Shown here piece by piece: positions 1-7,020 of a stretch of DNA of 24,251 bases (its first letter is position 1; each line of letters starts with the position of its first letter). The translations under genes and the position numbers were made by a program. The notes under the pieces are model-generated. The model did not search any database, had not been told where the DNA came from, and saw only the letters and a list, made by a program, of their open reading frames with translations. This DNA comes from a virus: positions 1-24,251 of IMG/VR virus record IMGVR_UViG_3300040808_002226, one strand, 5' to 3'.

Positions 1-47
1 GCTCGAAATACCTCGCAGGTCTGGGCGGCAAAAGGACCCGCAAGTAA
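1..47 (+). CDS. C-terminal end of an unidentified protein (partial)
   Basis: Reading from base 3, the window opens in a frame ending SKYLAGLGGKRTRK and then TAA at 45-47. The basic tail and the immediate shift to AT-rich non-coding DNA fit the end of a real gene running in from the left. Only 14 residues are visible, so no family can be named, and a chance open frame of this length cannot be excluded. Confidence 0.35.
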   Translation, partial: SKYLAGLGGKRTRK

Positions 48-130
48 GCATATAAATATAAACAGCAATCGTAAGTGTTTTGTGTTTGTAAAATTTTAAA
101 ATTTTAAAATTAAAACAATATCTAACTGAT
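48..130. repeat. AT-rich spacer with tandem AAAATTTT
   Basis: The segment is almost pure A/T. It holds two exact, adjacent copies of AAAATTTT (90-97 and 98-105) followed by AAAATTAAAA (106-115). It separates the left-edge gene from the GC-rich block. Such DNA is bent and easily melted; it could serve as an upstream promoter element or an unwinding element, but nothing shows which. The stretch from 131 to 264 is GC-rich, and I see no gene in it. Confidence 0.5.
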
Positions 131-264
131 TGAGGTGGTGGGGTGTGCCTAGGTTCGGCGCGGTTAGCTAGGCCGGCGGCGGGCGATTGACTGCGCACCA
201 TTGGCAGACAAAACAAAACCCCACACCGCGCGGGCATGGGGGCGGCGCCCTATGGGCGGGCACT

Positions 265-289
265 AAAAAGCCCGGCGTTTAGGCCGGGC
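265..289 (-). terminator. Intrinsic terminator of the GC-rich block
   Basis: On the minus strand a perfect 7-bp stem GCCGGGC/GCCCGGC (289-283 pairing with 276-270) with a 6-base loop is followed by five T residues (269-265). It lies 28 bases past the stop codon of the 317-1390 gene, so it most likely ends transcription of the whole minus-strand GC-rich block. Confidence 0.85.
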
Positions 290-316
290 GACGGGCGGGC
301 GGGTTAGGGGCGGCGG

Positions 317-1390
317 TTACCAGTGAAGCGTGACCGTGCCATCGTTCAGCGCCTGCGGTTCGGCGATCGGGGCCAGGCTGAAAGGATCGGCGGCCGGGCC
401 AGCCCCGCGGGATCGCTTAGTCCGCAGAATGACGGCGACCCCGTGGGGATCGGCCCACCGGTGATCAGTCAAATCACCGTCAACCGTGGGCACGGTTACG
501 AAACCAGCGGCGCCCGTGCTGATTGTCAGGCGCGACGGGATAGGGGCGCCCTTAGCTATCGCGACGGGCACGGCCAGGCGGAAGCCTGCGGCCACAGCGG
601 CCAGACCATCGCGGCAGGCCGTCGCGCGATCGGCGGCGAAGCTAGCCGTTAGGTCCCATCCCGCGGCCCGTTGCGCTTCAAGGCCTAGGGCGCCGGTTAG
701 TCCCGCCTTTGAGTATTCGTAATTAATCCAGCTACCGGCGGCCACCATCGGGGCGACCGCTTCGGCGATCGTTACGGCCTGGCCAGGCGCAACGGTCACG
801 CCAAACCGGCGGCCTAGGGCGATTGCTTCGGCCGGGCTTAGGTCAAACCGCAAGCGGTGCCATGCCGTATCGTCCGTGCCGCGCAATCGCAGGGCCAGGG
901 CCAGGCCGTCGCGCTGTGCGGCGGCCCATTGGCGGCAGGCGGCCCAAAGCACCGCGCGCCCGTAGGCGGCAGGGTCGGCCAGTAGGGCCAGGGTTCGGCG
1001 GCCGCGGGCGGCGGCGACCTTAGGGCTTAGGCCCCCGTGCCCGGCCCAATTGAGACAGCCGGCGATACAGGCGGGGGTTCCCCATGGGCAGCCATGGTGG
1101 GCGCGGGCGGCGGCGGTTAGGCCCTCGCGTTCAGCAAGCTCTAAAAGCTCCGGCAAGTAACCGCGCGGGGCGACGGGCGACCCATTTCCGGGATCGATCG
1201 CCGCGGCCAGGGCGCGCGCGGGCAGGTGGTGAAGAATTGCAGGGCGGGCCAGGGCGGCGCCCTTTTCAAGCTTCGGGTTCGAGTCAGTCAGCAGGCCGGG
1301 GAGATCTAGGCCGAACCGGGCCAGTAGGCCGGCGATATCGGGCGGCAGGCCTAGGGGCGCCTTACGGCGCGCGCGGGCGGTCGTTTGCAT
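317..1390 (-). CDS. GP88-like phage protein with a Cys cluster
   Basis: A 357-residue Ala/Arg/Gly-rich protein. Near residue 100 it has a cluster HHGCPWGTPACIAGC, i.e. C-x6-C-x3-C, followed by LNWAGHGG and a basic segment RGRRTLALL. This arrangement resembles the conserved phage and plasmid family typified by mycobacteriophage gene product 88; that assignment is from memory and the function of the family is not established. The Cys cluster could bind metal. The C-terminal half contains TVDGDLTDHRWADPHGVAV and is probably a separate domain. The start at 1390 is supported by the conserved leader (CCCTTTATCGCTTA) ending 7 bases upstream. It is the last gene of the GC-rich block, and a strong terminator follows. 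The composition differs sharply from the genes right of 3300. Confidence 0.8.
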   Translation of the reverse strand: MQTTARARRKAPLGLPPDIAGLLARFGLDLPGLLTDSNPKLEKGAALARPAILHHLPARALAAAIDPGNGSPVAPRGYLPELLELAEREGLTAAARAHHGCPWGTPACIAGCLNWAGHGGLSPKVAAARGRRTLALLADPAAYGRAVLWAACRQWAAAQRDGLALALRLRGTDDTAWHRLRFDLSPAEAIALGRRFGVTVAPGQAVTIAEAVAPMVAAGSWINYEYSKAGLTGALGLEAQRAAGWDLTASFAADRATACRDGLAAVAAGFRLAVPVAIAKGAPIPSRLTISTGAAGFVTVPTVDGDLTDHRWADPHGVAVILRTKRSRGAGPAADPFSLAPIAEPQALNDGTVTLHW

Positions 1391-1397
1391 GGGCCGT

Positions 1398-1427
1398 TAA
1401 GCGATAAAGGGGCGGCGATTGAACGCC
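1398..1427 (-). promoter_or_regulatory. Start-associated leader copy 1
   Basis: Coding-strand CCCCTTTATCGCTTA ends 7 bases before the ATG of the 317-1390 gene. Directly upstream is a small hairpin, GGCG and CGCC arms with a 6-base loop (1414-1427). The same motif occurs before three other genes of this block. It has no Shine-Dalgarno purine run, so it may be a promoter or a translation element. Confidence 0.7.
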
Positions 1428-1468
1428 TAAGGGCGCCCGGCGGCGAACCGTGGGGCGCGGTTAGGGGC

Positions 1469-1699
1469 TCAGTCGTGGGGGCGCTCCCGCTCAAGGGCGG
1501 AACTATGGGCACCGCCTAGGCGGGAGCCATCCGGGTGAGACGGGGTATCCCATAGGACCTCTGCGAACCCGGCGCCCCATAGGCGGGTAAGGGTCCCGCG
1601 GGCGGTGGGAGTCCAACCCGTGGCCGCGCCAATGGTGCGGCAGAAGGCGCTCGAATAGCGCACCCGGTCACCGATAGCTAGGGGGTTCTTAGGGGCCAT
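1469..1699 (-). CDS. Small conserved phage protein, SH3/KOW-like
   Basis: A 76-residue protein starting MAPKNPLAIGDRVRYSS. The pattern IGDRVRYSSAF...ARGTLTRLWG...AEVLWDT looks like a small beta-barrel (KOW/SH3-like) and matches a common family of short phage and plasmid proteins with no known role. The start at 1699 is chosen because its ATG overlaps the TGA of the upstream gene (TGATG), giving translational coupling; a longer upstream extension would run through that gene in another frame. It is the only gene of the block without its own conserved leader, which fits the coupling. Confidence 0.72.
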   Translation of the reverse strand: MAPKNPLAIGDRVRYSSAFCRTIGAATGWTPTARGTLTRLWGAGFAEVLWDTPSHPDGSRLGGAHSSALERERPHD

Positions 1700-1992
1700 C
1701 AAGCCAGGCCCCATACGCGGCGCGCAACGGCGACTAGGGCCACCATTTGCTCGCGATCGGCGACCCAATAGGCCGGCGACTCAAGACGGCAAAGGCGCGC
1801 ATAGGTTGCGGCGGTCACCGTGATGGGCCAGGCCGTGGCCTGATAGGCCTGATCCCTAAGCGATCCGGGCACTGCATGGTGGCCGTGGTAACTCTCGGGC
1901 CAGCATGCGACGGGGCGGCCGTCTTCAAGCATCACCCAAGCGCGGCGCGGGTTGCCGTCGCTGTCATTGGTAGCTGTGAAATAAGCAAGCAT
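1699..1992 (-). CDS. Conserved small phage protein of unknown function
   Basis: A 97-residue protein starting MLAYFTATNDSDGNPRRAW and continuing VMLEDGRPVACWPESYHGHHAVP. It resembles a widespread short phage/plasmid protein family that I recall only as uncharacterised. The open frame extends further upstream to 2352, but the conserved leader CCCCTTTATCGCTT ends 6 bases before the codon at 1992, and the sequence upstream of it overlaps the 2024-2221 gene, so 1992 is the likely start. Its stop overlaps the ATG of the next gene by one base. Confidence 0.75.
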   Translation of the reverse strand: MLAYFTATNDSDGNPRRAWVMLEDGRPVACWPESYHGHHAVPGSLRDQAYQATAWPITVTAATYARLCRLESPAYWVADREQMVALVAVARRVWGLA

Positions 1993-1998
1993 GGGGGC

Positions 1999-2030
1999 AA
2001 GCGATAAAGGGGCGGGGCGGCGTTCAGCCG
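1999..2030 (-). promoter_or_regulatory. Start-associated leader copy 2
   Basis: Coding-strand CCCCTTTATCGCTT ends 6 bases before the ATG at 1992. A hairpin with CGGC/GCCG arms and a 5-base loop (2018-2030) lies just upstream. The whole element fits in the 31-base gap after the stop of the 2024-2221 gene, partly overlapping that gene's last codons. Confidence 0.68.
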
Positions 2031-2221
2031 ACATAGGCGACGGTGACCGGGGCGACCCGGTAGGCCCAGAGGTCACCGCGCACCGCGCGGCGCAGGGCGG
2101 CGCGGCGTTCAGCGACGGGGCGGGCCAGGGTCTCAGTCTCGTCGACCCAGCCGGCGACGGTGCCCGCGTAGCGCTGGACCACAAAGCGGGTACGGCTAGG
2201 GATGGTGTGGAGAGTTTGCAT
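2024..2221 (-). CDS. Small protein of unknown function, GC-rich block
   Basis: A 65-residue protein starting MQTLHTIPSRTRFVVQRYAG. It has a short beta-rich N-terminal part and an Arg/Ala-rich helix (AERRAALRRAVRGDLWAYRV). I do not recognise a family. The start at 2221 is supported by the conserved leader CCCTTTATCGCTTA ending 7 bases upstream. It sits in the same orientation as its four neighbours, probably in one transcription unit with them or separated only by leader elements. Confidence 0.65.
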   Translation of the reverse strand: MQTLHTIPSRTRFVVQRYAGTVAGWVDETETLARPVAERRAALRRAVRGDLWAYRVAPVTVAYVG

Positions 2222-2228
2222 TGACTGT

Positions 2229-2257
2229 TAAGCGATAAAGGGCGGCGCTTCCGCCGC
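2229..2257 (-). promoter_or_regulatory. Start-associated leader copy 3
   Basis: Coding-strand CCCTTTATCGCTTA ends 7 bases before the ATG at 2221. Immediately upstream is a perfect hairpin of six base pairs (GCGGCG/CGCCGC arms, four-base loop, 2242-2257). A further palindrome GGGCAG-C-CTGCCC lies at 2303-2315, just after the stop codon of the previous gene. Confidence 0.7.
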
Positions 2258-2320
2258 TGCGGCCACACTAGGCGAGGGATCGGCAGGCATCCCCGATCGG
2301 GTGGGCAGCCTGCCCGATTG

Positions 2321-2872
2321 TCACAGCGCGGCCAGGCAAGCGGCGACCCCATCGCGGCGGATCCGTGCCCTTAGGGCCGATTCCCGCGCGTTCGCGTCCG
2401 GCCGCTGTGCCCAAGTTAAAAAGGCCTCAAAAGGCCAGCCAAGGGCACACCACACATCCGACGAGAGGGCACCACCGCCGGCCAGGAATTCAAGGGCGGC
2501 GACTTTATCGGCGGCGCCTTTGAGATCCGGCAACTTAGGGGCGGCCGTGCCATGGGAGGGCGCGGGCGCTGTGGCCGGTTCGCCCGGCAGGCAAGGGCGC
2601 ACCGCGGCGACGGGTTCGGCGACGGCGACCGGTTCAGCGGCCGGGGCGGGTTCGGCCCAAGGGTCGGCCACCACTAGGGCCAGGCGGGCAGTCGGATGAG
2701 TCGCGGCCACTTCGGCCAGCCGCTTAGCGGCGAGCTCGGGGCGGCCGCACCATGCGACGGCTTGGGCGGGGTCGCCCACAACGACGGCCGCGTGATAAGT
2801 CCGGGCGGTGCGCCGCTTAAAGGTCGCGCCGGTGATGGGGTCGCGGGCGGTGATGGTGCGCGTTTGTGCCAT
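2321..2872 (-). CDS. Unknown protein, first gene of the GC-rich block
   Basis: A 183-residue protein in three parts. Residues 1-70 are a compact domain starting MAQTRTITARDPITGATFKR. Residues 70-110 are a low-complexity Ala/Pro/Glu/Val linker with repeated AEPVA units. Residues 110-183 are a helical domain with WCALGWPFEAFLTWAQR. I do not recognise a family. The start at 2872 is supported by the conserved leader ending 10 bases upstream. As the leftmost-transcribed start of the block on the minus strand, it is probably close to the main promoter in the 2880-3130 region. Confidence 0.65.
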   Translation of the reverse strand: MAQTRTITARDPITGATFKRRTARTYHAAVVVGDPAQAVAWCGRPELAAKRLAEVAATHPTARLALVVADPWAEPAPAAEPVAVAEPVAAVRPCLPGEPATAPAPSHGTAAPKLPDLKGAADKVAALEFLAGGGALSSDVWCALGWPFEAFLTWAQRPDANARESALRARIRRDGVAACLAAL

Positions 2873-2882
2873 GGGGACTAGC

Positions 2883-2917
2883 TAAGCGATAAAGGGGCCA
2901 GCTTCCGCCGGCGCCCC
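2883..2917 (-). promoter_or_regulatory. Start-associated leader copy 4
   Basis: Coding-strand CCCCTTTATCGCTTA ends 10 bases before the ATG at 2872. A GC hairpin lies directly upstream (arms GGGGC/GCCCC at 2894-2898 and 2913-2917). Copies 3 and 4 also share CTTCCGCCG in their loop region, suggesting that the hairpin and the motif were copied together. Confidence 0.68.
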
Positions 2918-3306
2918 CATTGTTGCCGCCGATCGGCGGGGATCCCATGTCTGCTGTGCCGATTTCTCAGGCGGCCTAGGTGACAGGGCCACGGGCACCT
3001 AGGGCACGTTGTGGGCCATGGCGCCCCATATATAAGGAAGCGCCCCGCTGCCCCGGTTAGCCATGCAAACCGTGCGGCCTAGTTTCACATTCTTATCACT
3101 TAGCAGTTAGGTATAGTGCAGCGGACACGTTGTACTTTTGATGTAGCTTACTCAACTAGAGTTTGCTACACCGACCGCTGTATTTACGATTAGTTTGTGT
3201 AAACAATTGGCCTCAACATTTTCTGAATTTACTACATTTAGTATTTCAGGAAACACCCCCCGCCTCTGTCTGTGTATGTGAGTGAGGGTGTGTGTGTGAA
3301 AAAGGC
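2918..3306. other. Non-coding region between GC-rich block and left gene cluster
   Basis: I see no convincing gene in this stretch. Composition shifts from GC-rich to AT-rich near 3060-3090. It contains a nested dyad (3119-3180), a TACTACA heptamer (3230-3236) and a GT-rich run (3270-3298). It is a likely promoter region for the GC-rich block, but no clear -35/-10 pair stands out. Confidence 0.6.
3142..3170. repeat. 29-bp imperfect dyad
   Basis: Arms TGTAGC and GCTACA (3142-3147, 3165-3170) and inner arms ACTC and GAGT (3150-3153, 3159-3162) are arranged symmetrically around AACTA, with a TT on each side as the only mismatch. A second pair, CAGCGG and CCGCTG (3119-3124, 3175-3180), surrounds it. 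There is no T-run, so it is not a terminator. The form suits a dimeric protein site such as an operator or a tyrosine-recombinase core, but there is no recombinase gene in view. Confidence 0.6.
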
Positions 3307-3417
3307 CCTAAAACCGACCCCTTGCGAGTCCCGGACCTTTTTGTGTCTGTGTGTCTGAGCCCCTAAAACCGACACCCCGCGAGTCCCGCGCCTTAAACCG
3401 GATGGCTGCGAGTCCCG
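3307..3417. repeat. Three direct repeats CCTAAAACCGAC-N5-GCGAGTCCCG
   Basis: Units at 3307-3333, 3362-3388 and 3391-3417 each begin CCTAAAACCG or CCTTAAACCG, and GCGAGTCCCG begins exactly 17 bases later in each. A fourth, slightly shorter copy lies at 7812-7835, just upstream of the minus-strand start at 7806. The third unit overlaps the 3' end of the 3393-3560 gene. They could be protein-binding or promoter elements. Confidence 0.75.
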
Positions 3418-3560
3418 CGGCTCCAGTGAACCTGCTCCAGTAATCGGGCCAAAGCCGCCTGCTTGGTCCAGGTGCGGTCGCCAGGCAAAGGCTCAGTCCC
3501 GTACTCCCACGTATCAAAGTCGTCCTGATTACGTGGGTCGCGCATTCGAGGCTGGTCCAT
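3393..3560 (-). CDS. Small protein of unknown function (55 aa)
   Basis: Translation gives a 55-residue protein starting MDQPRMRDPRNQDDFDTWEY and ending RGTRSHPV. Its mixed, hydrophilic composition with several Trp residues looks like a genuine small phage protein rather than a chance frame, but I recognise no family. The last codons and stop are formed by one of the GCGAGTCCCG repeats, so either the repeat was inserted across the gene end or the gene end was captured by the repeat. About 135 bases separate it from the next upstream gene, and I see no other gene there. Confidence 0.5.
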   Translation of the reverse strand: MDQPRMRDPRNQDDFDTWEYGTEPLPGDRTWTKQAALARLLEQVHWSRGTRSHPV

Positions 3561-3694
3561 CTAATGGGTGGCGCAGGTCTCGGGCACAGGGTAGTGTGGG
3601 CGCTCGAAATTCTATTGAGGAATCTCGAAGCGTCCGTAGCAGGCAGGCTGCGGTGAGGCCGGCACCGCGTGAGGACCGGCCACCTGCCACCTAA

Positions 3695-3934
3695 TTAGTC
3701 GGGAAGCTGCAGGACTGCTTGGCGCAGCAGCTCGAAGTCAGCCGTCATCTCGTCGCCGGTTGTGTGGGCGTTGGCACTAAACCGCCCCAAAGCTTGAAGA
3801 GCTGGCTGCTTCAGGCTGGACGTTGAACCGGGAGTGATGTCTTGCCACTTCGTGCCAGTCCAGATCTGCAGGCGGTCGTACCAGCCTTGCTCGCCTCTGG
3901 CAAAGCGCATGTCGCCTTTGTTGACTTCGGTCAT
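3695..3934 (-). CDS. Small protein of unknown function (79 aa)
   Basis: A 79-residue protein starting MTEVNKGDMRFARGEQGWYD. The first half (GDMRFARGEQGWYDRLQIWTGTKWQD) is Trp/Tyr-rich with short beta-like segments, a pattern common in small phage virion-associated or fibre-associated domains. The second half is helical (TADFELLRQAVLQLPD). No family is recognised. It sits 10 bases downstream of the 3945-4211 gene in the same direction, so the two are very probably co-transcribed. Confidence 0.65.
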   Translation of the reverse strand: MTEVNKGDMRFARGEQGWYDRLQIWTGTKWQDITPGSTSSLKQPALQALGRFSANAHTTGDEMTADFELLRQAVLQLPD

Positions 3935-4887: not shown

Positions 4888-5417
4888 TAATCGGCGGTAG
4901 AAGGCTTGGGTTCAGCGGCGTCCCACTGCTTGCGCAGCTCTTCGCGGCGCTTTTCCCGCTGCTCGTAGATGTCTTTGCCCTTAGCGGCTTGCTCGTCGCG
5001 CTGCTTAGCGAGCGTGGCAATCGCGCAGCACTTGTCGGTAATCAAGTCGGTCAGGTCATTAGCGGCGCCGCAAAGCATGCCGCCCCACATCTCGGCGTCG
5101 TTGCCGGTAGAGGCTTTGAGCAGCTCGTCCACAGAGTTCTCGGGGTAATCGAGCTCGTTGCTGCCCTGAATGACGAGGTCCCGCGCAATCAAAAGGCGCT
5201 GCATTTTGAAGGTCTCGGTGCGGATGTCGGCTTCAAGGGAGTTCTTGGCCTTGCACGTACCAGTGTGCAGGTCGTCGATGCGCTTGTACTCGGGGTCGGC
5301 AGTAAAGAAGTCGTAGAGCGTGTTGAACTGATCGCGGATGCTCAGCGGTTTGGGTTGGATCTTGACGGTGGTGGAAGGACGGCCGGCTTTGCGGCGGGGA
5401 TAGACACCTTTAGGCAT
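4887..5417 (-). CDS. Unknown protein starting MPKGVYPRRK
   Basis: A 176-residue protein. The N-terminus MPKGVYPRRKAGRPS is basic and resembles the leaders of many small phage DNA-associated proteins. The rest is helical with a charged C-terminal coiled-coil-like region (EQREKRREELRKQWD). Two Cys residues (DKCCAIATL) are adjacent. No function can be assigned. The open frame extends to 5537, but the start at 5417 gives the typical N-terminus and lies about 55 bases downstream of a good promoter (5474-5502). It heads the operon 5417 to about 3393, with TAATG coupling to the next gene. Confidence 0.7.
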   Translation of the reverse strand: MPKGVYPRRKAGRPSTTVKIQPKPLSIRDQFNTLYDFFTADPEYKRIDDLHTGTCKAKNSLEADIRTETFKMQRLLIARDLVIQGSNELDYPENSVDELLKASTGNDAEMWGGMLCGAANDLTDLITDKCCAIATLAKQRDEQAAKGKDIYEQREKRREELRKQWDAAEPKPSTAD

Positions 5418-6209: not shown

Positions 6210-6959
6210 TTAGCGCTTGAGAGCTAGTGCCCACACAGGAGCACGGCTACCCGTGCCAAGTGCGGCTTGGGTGCTGTGGTCGTGGACCTTGGCAACCACA
6301 CCATCGCAGGGATAAGAGGCAAAGCGTCGGCCGTCCAGCCACTCGTTGTAGAGCTTGAGAACCTCCTTGGGCTTGGTGCAAAGCAGTGAATCAACGACGC
6401 TGATGCCCAGGCGGCTGATCGCGTCAAGGCTGGTGGACTCTGTGCCAGTGGCGCCGTAGAGGCGGTAGGCGGCAAAGGTCAGCTTCCGACCGCCGGAACG
6501 ATTAGCGCGCGCAGCTTGAGCTGCATCGGTCTGGGACTTGCCAGGAGTGGTGCCATACAGCTCGCCGTGGATCTCGATGTCGCCACCGGCGTTGATCACG
6601 TTGGGGATTGCGCCAACCTCTTTGACCAGGTCAAGGATGCACTTGCCGCTGCGGGTCCAGGCATCAGTGAGCAAGCCAGCCTTGTAGCGGACGGCGATAG
6701 CGATGCCGTCGATCTTGGGCTGAACGACGACTGCAGGGGTGATCTTGATGTAGTCGTACCAGCTCTCAAGGCTGCAGTTGTCGAGGCTGAGCAAGGCCGT
6801 GCCGCCACCGGGATAGCGGAGTTCAGGAGCGTAGGGGGCAAGAGCGCGAAGCTCGGCCTCTAGGCCGTCGTACTCGGAGTCGGTAAGGATCGGGTCGCCG
6901 TTGCGGTATGCGGCGTCAGCGCGGCGGATCTGAGTGCGCAGGGCTTCGATGGAGGCCAT
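6210..6959 (-). CDS. NAD-dependent DNA ligase adenylation domain only
   Basis: A 249-residue protein equal to the N-terminal part of bacterial LigA. Subdomain Ia, which binds NMN, is visible (Y18, and TDSEYD with D27, Y30, D31). The nucleotidyltransferase motifs follow: PKIDG with the catalytic Lys at 82, TRSGK at 102-106 (usually TRGDG), EIHGE at 129-133, CDGVVAK at 218-224 and WALALKR at 243-249. The protein stops right after motif V, so the OB-fold, zinc finger, HhH and BRCT domains are absent. Bacterial LigA is normally about 670 residues. As known, the adenylation domain can react with NAD+, but nick sealing needs the OB-fold; a partner or another role is possible. The start at 6959 matches the family; a GTG at 6992 would add 11 residues. 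Confidence 0.85.
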   Translation of the reverse strand: MASIEALRTQIRRADAAYRNGDPILTDSEYDGLEAELRALAPYAPELRYPGGGTALLSLDNCSLESWYDYIKITPAVVVQPKIDGIAIAVRYKAGLLTDAWTRSGKCILDLVKEVGAIPNVINAGGDIEIHGELYGTTPGKSQTDAAQAARANRSGGRKLTFAAYRLYGATGTESTSLDAISRLGISVVDSLLCTKPKEVLKLYNEWLDGRRFASYPCDGVVAKVHDHSTQAALGTGSRAPVWALALKR

Positions 6960-7020
6960 CGGAATAAGAGGTAAAGGGGTGCGGTCAGGCACGAGAGGAT
7001 TGTACTACAAGTTTCTGAGT

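Follow-up and report, generated by a model that had tools for sequence, protein, structure and literature searches.

The sequence examined here (the window), 24,251 bases long, is a virus contig from IMG/VR, and its left 3 kb (about 120-3060) has a G+C content of ~70%, compared to 52-61% across the rest. This GC-rich block comprises five genes, all on the minus strand: a GP88-family gene (317-1390, 357 aa; PF17338, E 2.5e-5; phrog_1617, E 9.5e-23), which is the last gene of a leftward operon, a 76-aa gene (1469-1699) with a homologue at 5697-5921 of the relative L090, a 97-aa gene (1699-1992) to which no function was assigned, a 65-aa gene (2024-2221) with homologues in L090 and L157, and a 183-aa gene (2321-2872) that is represented by two separate genes in L090. 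An intrinsic terminator on the same strand lies 3' of the GP88 gene (270-289; a 7-bp all-GC stem followed by TTTTT) and likely marks the end of the operon. An NAD-dependent DNA ligase gene (6210-6959, minus strand; phrog_3869, E 1e-29) is found outside the block. The four block genes other than GP88 gave no significant match in Pfam or PHROG, a PADLOC check of the block for defence genes returned zero matches, searches of named phages gave no nucleotide relative of the block, and named phages and plasmids yielded no GP88 relative.

A short leader precedes four of the five block genes, as an earlier note on this DNA had claimed. The exact 13-mer CCCTTTATCGCTT occurs in four copies (minus strand, 1399-1411, 1999-2011, 2230-2242 and 2884-2896), on the coding strand only and nowhere else in the 24 kb, each 6-11 bases before an ATG. 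Copy 1 (CCCTTTATCGCTTA, 1398-1411) stands 7 nt before the ATG of the GP88-family gene, copy 2 (CCCTTTATCGCTT followed by G, 1999-2011) 6 nt before the ATG at 1992, copy 3 (CCCTTTATCGCTTA, 2229-2242) 7 nt before the ATG at 2221 and copy 4 (CCCTTTATCGCTTA, 2883-2896) 10 nt before the ATG at 2872, all of them exact. The starts given in the note (1390, 1992, 2221 and 2872) and its spacing of 6-10 bases for the 14-mer are correct. The GP88 gene of L090 is preceded by a leader identical to copy 1. Allowing up to three mismatches, 15 matches to the 13-mer were found in the window against 5.9 +/- 2.3 expected, and the observed 13-mer count was reached in none of 100 shuffles. The motif also occurs outside the GC-rich block: a degenerate copy (CCCTTTACCTCTT, 6966-6978, minus strand, two mismatches to the 13-mer) lies 6 nt before the ligase ATG at 6959, and the relative G001 carries its own version, CCCCTTACCGCTTA, at the same ligase position. 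A weaker pyrimidine-rich stretch with CTTACCTCTTAACC was seen upstream of the gene starting at 5417, ~19 nt away. The fifth block gene, of 76 aa, has no leader and overlaps its upstream neighbour by TGATG (1697-1701), the coupling that the note had described; ahead of it, inside the end of the upstream gene, lies a Shine-Dalgarno (SD)-like GGGG run (1709-1712, minus strand) with an anti-SD duplex energy of -4.7 kcal/mol. The corresponding energies of the leaders are -1.7 to +1.9 kcal/mol, in agreement with the claim that they lack a Shine-Dalgarno sequence.

The GC hairpins that the note had placed upstream of each copy proved no stronger than composition predicts. Stems are present at 2242-2257 (6 bp) and 2894-2917, and those at 1414-1427 and 2018-2030 are of 3-4 bp only. 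When the upstream 48-nt segments were folded with 200 dinucleotide shuffles each, the four block leaders had z-scores of +0.01, +0.74, -0.37 and -0.66, and we therefore regard the block hairpins as the ordinary folding of GC-rich RNA. The corresponding segments differ in the 89%-identical relative L090, in which the hairpins are not conserved. A hairpin module was thus rejected (lowest z-score not below -1.25, no conservation), and the hairpins are not counted as part of the leader element.

Relatives were found by scanning viral contigs with the GP88 protein and by alignment (about 30 loci); a GP88 scan of a genome collection added two MAG contigs, binned as Gammaproteobacteria, and these may be phage DNA that was placed in the wrong bin. 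In nine related contigs a leader of this type stands ahead of block or ligase genes, each genome having a version of its own (CCCCTTACCGCTTAGC and CTTATCGCTTATCTC among others): L090/G001 has four close copies of CCCCTTACCGCTTAGC, including one at the ligase gene, plus one CCCTTTATCGCTT at GP88, and the versions of the other relatives are ACCCCTTACCCGTTGCCCCCATG in L091, CTGACCCCTTACCACTRG in L092/L093, CCCTTTACCCGTTGCTCCCATG in L095/G006, GTTATCGCTTATCTCTTATG in L097/G002, CCCTTACCACTTGCCTGCCATG in L098/G003, CGCTTACCGCTTACCCGTCATG in L099/G004 and CCCTTACCCCTTACAAAATG in L125. The exact 14-mer is one genome's version of a variable leader. Searching with the window word alone (up to three mismatches, plus the form shorter by 1 nt), we obtained 65 matches in the nearer relatives against 23.5 +/- 5.7 in shuffles, and 33 of the 65 lie 2-14 nt before an ORF start, where 11 were expected; the motif keeps the same distance before starts in related phages, a check that the note had proposed, and its positions there are not random. 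The motif is not a shared feature of the more distant GP88 relatives (L101-L122), where 21 of 78 matches lie near starts against 13.5 expected. One of them, L115, has another pyrimidine-rich leader, CCTTTCCTTTCCTGAAACCATG, before two genes (positions 2741 and 3682), the same kind of element in another word.

Two leaders of non-orthologous genes resemble each other more when they come from one genome than when they come from different ones (likeness 11.2 vs 9.0, permutation P = 0.0005), and the segments just upstream (6.1 within vs 6.0 between) and just downstream (6.7 vs 6.5) score nearly the same in both comparisons. The 183-aa gene of the window corresponds to two L090 genes of 69 and 102 aa, and the second one begins at a start without counterpart in the window and has a complete leader of the L090 type (CCCCTTACCGCTTAGCTATG) in front of it. 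Because of this split-gene leader and the likeness within genomes, we conclude that the element tracks starts and that its version tracks the genome. The homologues of the 65-aa gene (2024-2221) in L090 and L157 are each preceded by their own leader version; the gene content of the block turns over and the leaders persist. Several degenerate units (CCCTTACCGCTCACC...) lie between the genes of G003.

IMG/VR was also scanned with the motif only. The search for CCCTTACCNCTTRCC followed by ATG within 6 nt returned 31 stretches, mostly isolated words, but one of them, L157 (contig G014, 49,462 bases), has several copies and is related to the window phage by tblastn (primase 49%, RecT 63%, helicase 43%). 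Its homologue of the 2024-2221 gene (44%) has the leader CCTTTACCGCTTACCTGCC before the ATG. Its 49 kb contain five matches with up to two mismatches, every one on the coding strand in the final 2.6 kb and three preceding starts. GP88 was not found in L157, in a search run without a positive control; because an open reading frame runs off the end of the contig, L157 may have been truncated inside the block. The exact 13-mer followed by ATG occurs in 85 stretches with one copy each, which by rough estimate does not exceed chance, so the exact word looks private to the lineage. The scan for triple heptads gave 13 stretches, among which the G003 leader is the sole gene start of this phage family, and most of the others are not followed by a long ORF. 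In the viral contigs L128, L129, L131 and L133, CTTACCN or CTTATCN heptamers form tandem microsatellites, mostly not before long ORFs. As a separate observation, genes with similar N-termini at L157 11842 and L124 4627 have the leader CTTTTGAGTCCCCTTTACCTTTTGAGTCCCGTG or a closely similar one (L124, a contig assigned to a Gammaproteobacteria MAG, may be phage DNA in the wrong bin).

The anatomy of the leader was described from 48 starts of block and ligase genes in the nine contigs, 43 free-standing and five overlap-coupled; they were chosen by eye with the motif in mind, so the counts that follow are inflated and should be read as optimistic, and the blind tests are the safer evidence. The core CTT(T)AYC falls within -45 to -1 of 34 of the 43 free-standing starts, and in control segments at +10, +100 and -110 it was found 1, 0 and 2 times. 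Successive TTA units are spaced by 7 nt in 16 of 29 pairs, and core starts cluster 9-10, 16-17 and 23-24 nt before the start codon, which amounts to a 7-nt register. The leaders consist of 45% C, 29% T and 13% G (about 75% C+U in -25 to -1), compared to 41% G at the coupled starts. Anti-SD pairing is absent from the leaders (mean +1.2 kcal/mol; 0 of 43 at or below -4) and present in all five coupled starts (-4.7 to -10.7, mean -8.5; Mann-Whitney P = 0.0003), the coupled genes of relatives ranging from -8.4 to -10.7; a Shine-Dalgarno purine run (complementary to CCUCC) stands ahead of TGATG-coupled genes only. At -20 to -11, leaders have a predicted unpaired probability of 0.70, compared to 0.41 at background positions and 0.38 at coupled starts, so that, as far as structure prediction goes, the leaders are the pyrimidine-rich, weakly structured upstream stretches typical of S1-type leaders. 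Window genes outside the operon and the genes of Synechococcus phages S-CBS1 and S-H1 showed a balanced upstream composition, and 32-44% of them have SD pairing, with leaders almost absent. Pairing with 16S rRNA beyond the anti-SD was rejected, because the best sites were no better than shuffled words (the test used E. coli rrsB), and an Rfam 15 search of the window gave nothing at the gathering score.

By protein, the nearest named phages are Synechococcus phage S-H1 for the primase (43%), KBS-S-2A and S-CBS1 for the exonuclease (46-48%) and, for the terminase of the relative L093, the freshwater phage S-LBS1 (47%, about equal to several non-cyanobacterial phages). Judged from these distant protein matches, the host is likely a picocyanobacterium; the HIP1 word (GCGATCGC) is not enriched in the window (0 seen vs 0.9 expected).

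Some other repeats were noticed in these genomes. The contigs of several relatives begin or end at a homologous base of a conserved sequence (NTNCGAATA.CCTCGCAGG...AGGGACCC; window 1-40, the ends of L090 and of L149 (18261), and the first bases of G004 and G005), and G003 has a similar sequence in its interior (L148 position 6738, minus strand), with further sequence beyond it. The shared contig end looks like a physical genome end, i.e., a cos-like site; in L093 the large terminase gene lies just beyond it. Two to three copies of GGGACTCGC(A/G)(A/G)GG...GTCGGTTTTAGG, which resemble the contig-end sequence, are present upstream of the block (window 3303-3390 and G001 3587-3683, both minus strand) and are possible packaging or recombination sites flanking it. 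Upstream of the block of G002 there are ~10 tandem copies of a ~27-nt unit (GGTTGGTGAAGCTCACTACCCCGTGG; L149 13960-14220), and tandem 35-nt repeats are similarly placed in L092 (3477-3651).

On balance, we lean towards the view that the element is an SD-independent, pyrimidine-rich translation-initiation leader, which would be read by the 30S subunit of the host, perhaps through S1, and would keep the start unstructured. In the mRNA of the leftward operon, from the ligase gene through GP88, a C/U-rich and nearly G-free stretch would replace the SD at free-standing starts; it would consist of one to three CUUACC(G) or CUUAUC(G) units, ~7 nt apart, that begin roughly 10, 17 or 24 nt ahead of the start codon. 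In such a transcript the C-rich RNA would trap a G-rich SD, and the leader might instead hold the start region single-stranded within ~70% G+C RNA and offer the 30S subunit a pyrimidine-rich landing site, plausibly via ribosomal protein S1. Genes with overlapping starts would need no leader, and translation may re-initiate there, coupled to the upstream gene, at an SD-like run rich in G. Computation has given the motif with its position and 7-nt register, the missing SD pairing, the predicted openness, the contrast with coupled genes and the conservation in genome-specific versions; the action in translation and the ribosome or S1 as reader we infer. The position of the leader, the missing SD, the openness and the contrast with the coupled genes point to translation initiation and not to a promoter or terminator, so that, as far as sequence can tell, a translation role is favoured over a role in transcription. 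The note had proposed a module that controls either of the two; its translation half is the one we favour, and its upstream hairpins have to be dropped. That most genes of the window phage outside the operon have no such leaders counts against the translation-leader reading, and generic S1 binding does not by itself account for the likeness within genomes, the difference between genomes or the 7-nt register.

These last features leave real room for a dedicated RNA-binding factor, although we hold this to be clearly the less probable case. The leader might be the RNA site of a phage or host regulatory protein that switches the whole operon on or off as one, site and protein having co-evolved lineage by lineage, with the 7-nt-spaced units being bound by repeated domains or by a multimer; TRAP and CsrA bind spaced short motifs. 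Such a protein would fit the versions that are alike within and different between genomes (P = 0.0005), the 7-nt spacing in register with the start codon, the confinement of the leader to one operon and its near absence from the rest of the genomes, and its overlap with the expected ribosome-binding position. However, no gene for such a protein was recognised: the window proteins scanned gave a single weak match to a ribbon-helix-helix, a zinc ribbon of the NrdR type and no RNA-binding domain. The missing SD would still need explaining, and we rate this account as rather unlikely. A bolder idea, to which we give marginally less credence still, is a phage family with a start code of its own, in which operon-wide, 7-nt-phased CUUACC units would replace the SD and a dedicated phage-encoded or phage-modified reader would co-evolve with them, giving each lineage private versions.

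Readings without a role in translation fare worse. The leaders might be gene-boundary repeats with no role in expression, short stretches of homology by which recombination and 7-nt slippage would shuffle, spread and homogenise small accessory genes; block genes do turn over while leaders stay, degenerate units (CCCTTACCGCTCACC...) occur in the intergenic spaces of G003, and triple heptads elsewhere in IMG/VR are plain microsatellites away from genes. Yet the position is tied to the start codon and not to the intergenic gap, the units are in register with the start, TGATG-coupled genes have no leader and the ligase gene outside the block has one, and we consider boundary repeats a distinctly unlikely explanation. 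One-orientation repeats before individual genes, at about -8 to -25 from the ATG and in a less GC-rich stretch of the block, could also be promoters (the -10 element of leaderless transcripts or the promoter of a phage RNA polymerase). This we find improbable, because sigma-70-type promoters in 1-3700 numbered 0 against 0.6 expected, the CTTACCGCTTA versions lack TANNNT (by inspection, TTTATCGCTTA and TTACCGCTTA also have none at the expected place, ~7 nt ahead of the start codon's first base), the element occurs inside operons with gaps of 20-40 nt, and the 7-nt register and variable number of units fit poorly. As to chance, pyrimidine words might be common in a block of ~70% G+C whose coding strand is rich in C runs, and a coincidence or one recent duplication might then suffice; with no shuffle out of 100 reaching the observed count, with flanks that differ between copies, and with recurrence at starts in nine related contigs and the blind retrieval of a tenth, composition can hardly be the cause.

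Returning to the translation leader, the way in which ribosomes find SD-less starts, notably in cyanobacteria, is an unsettled question, and a leader acting in translation would be a compact natural substitute for the SD with built-in controls, namely the lineage versions, the one to three units, the split-gene copy and the SD-using coupled genes. Translation of cyanobacterial rbcS needs S1 and not an SD, according to Mutsuda and Sugiura (2006), as cited in PMC9581028 and PMC6847405. The absence of an SD and the open leader are common to rbcS and to the window phage, itself distantly related to Synechococcus phages. We know of no tie between the S1-dependent mechanism of rbcS and a repeated, genome-specific sequence. 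More generally, SD-independent starts of cyanobacteria have weaker local structure (PMC6847405, PMC5397173), and a reduced structure around SD-less starts is predicted for the phage as well; in cyanobacteria, however, it is a statistical bias over many genes, whereas the phage leader is a strong repeated word in one operon. The literature on cyanobacterial S1 is divided, because S1 may be non-functional in initiation there (PMC5397173). The heptanucleotide microsatellites of other IMG/VR contigs resemble the leader in their tandem CTTACCN units but are mostly not before genes, whereas the units of the phage leader (one to three) are in register with the start codon.

The closest parallel is the start-associated sequence (SAS) of cluster K mycobacteriophages, a 13-bp word (GGGATAGGAGCCC, with up to two deviations) that contains the SD core AGGAG, is asymmetric, and lies in one orientation a few nt before the starts of some non-structural genes; it is highly alike within a genome and has a proposed but unproven role in translation initiation, and in about half of the cases a 17-bp imperfect inverted repeat (ESAS) lies just upstream (PMC3203893). 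The phage leader shares with it the length of ~13 bp, the placement, the orientation, the restriction to a subset of genes, the likeness within a genome and the spacing to the start (6-11 nt in the window, about 2-14 nt in relatives). It differs in its word (CCCTTTATCGCTT, not GGGATAGGAGCCC), in having no SD core (energy about +1 kcal/mol), in varying between relatives, in often coming as 7-nt-spaced units, and in its upstream stems, which are mostly of 3-6 bp and give no support for an inverted repeat like that of ESAS. Since the defining word and the SD core were looked for and are both absent, the leader is not a member of the SAS; it may work like the SAS, with no common ancestry indicated. 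The suggestion of the earlier note, an independent analogue of the cluster K sequences, is supported by the same distance from starts in relatives; if they act in translation, these leaders would be a second, independent case of phage start-associated sequences beside those of the cluster K mycobacteriophages.
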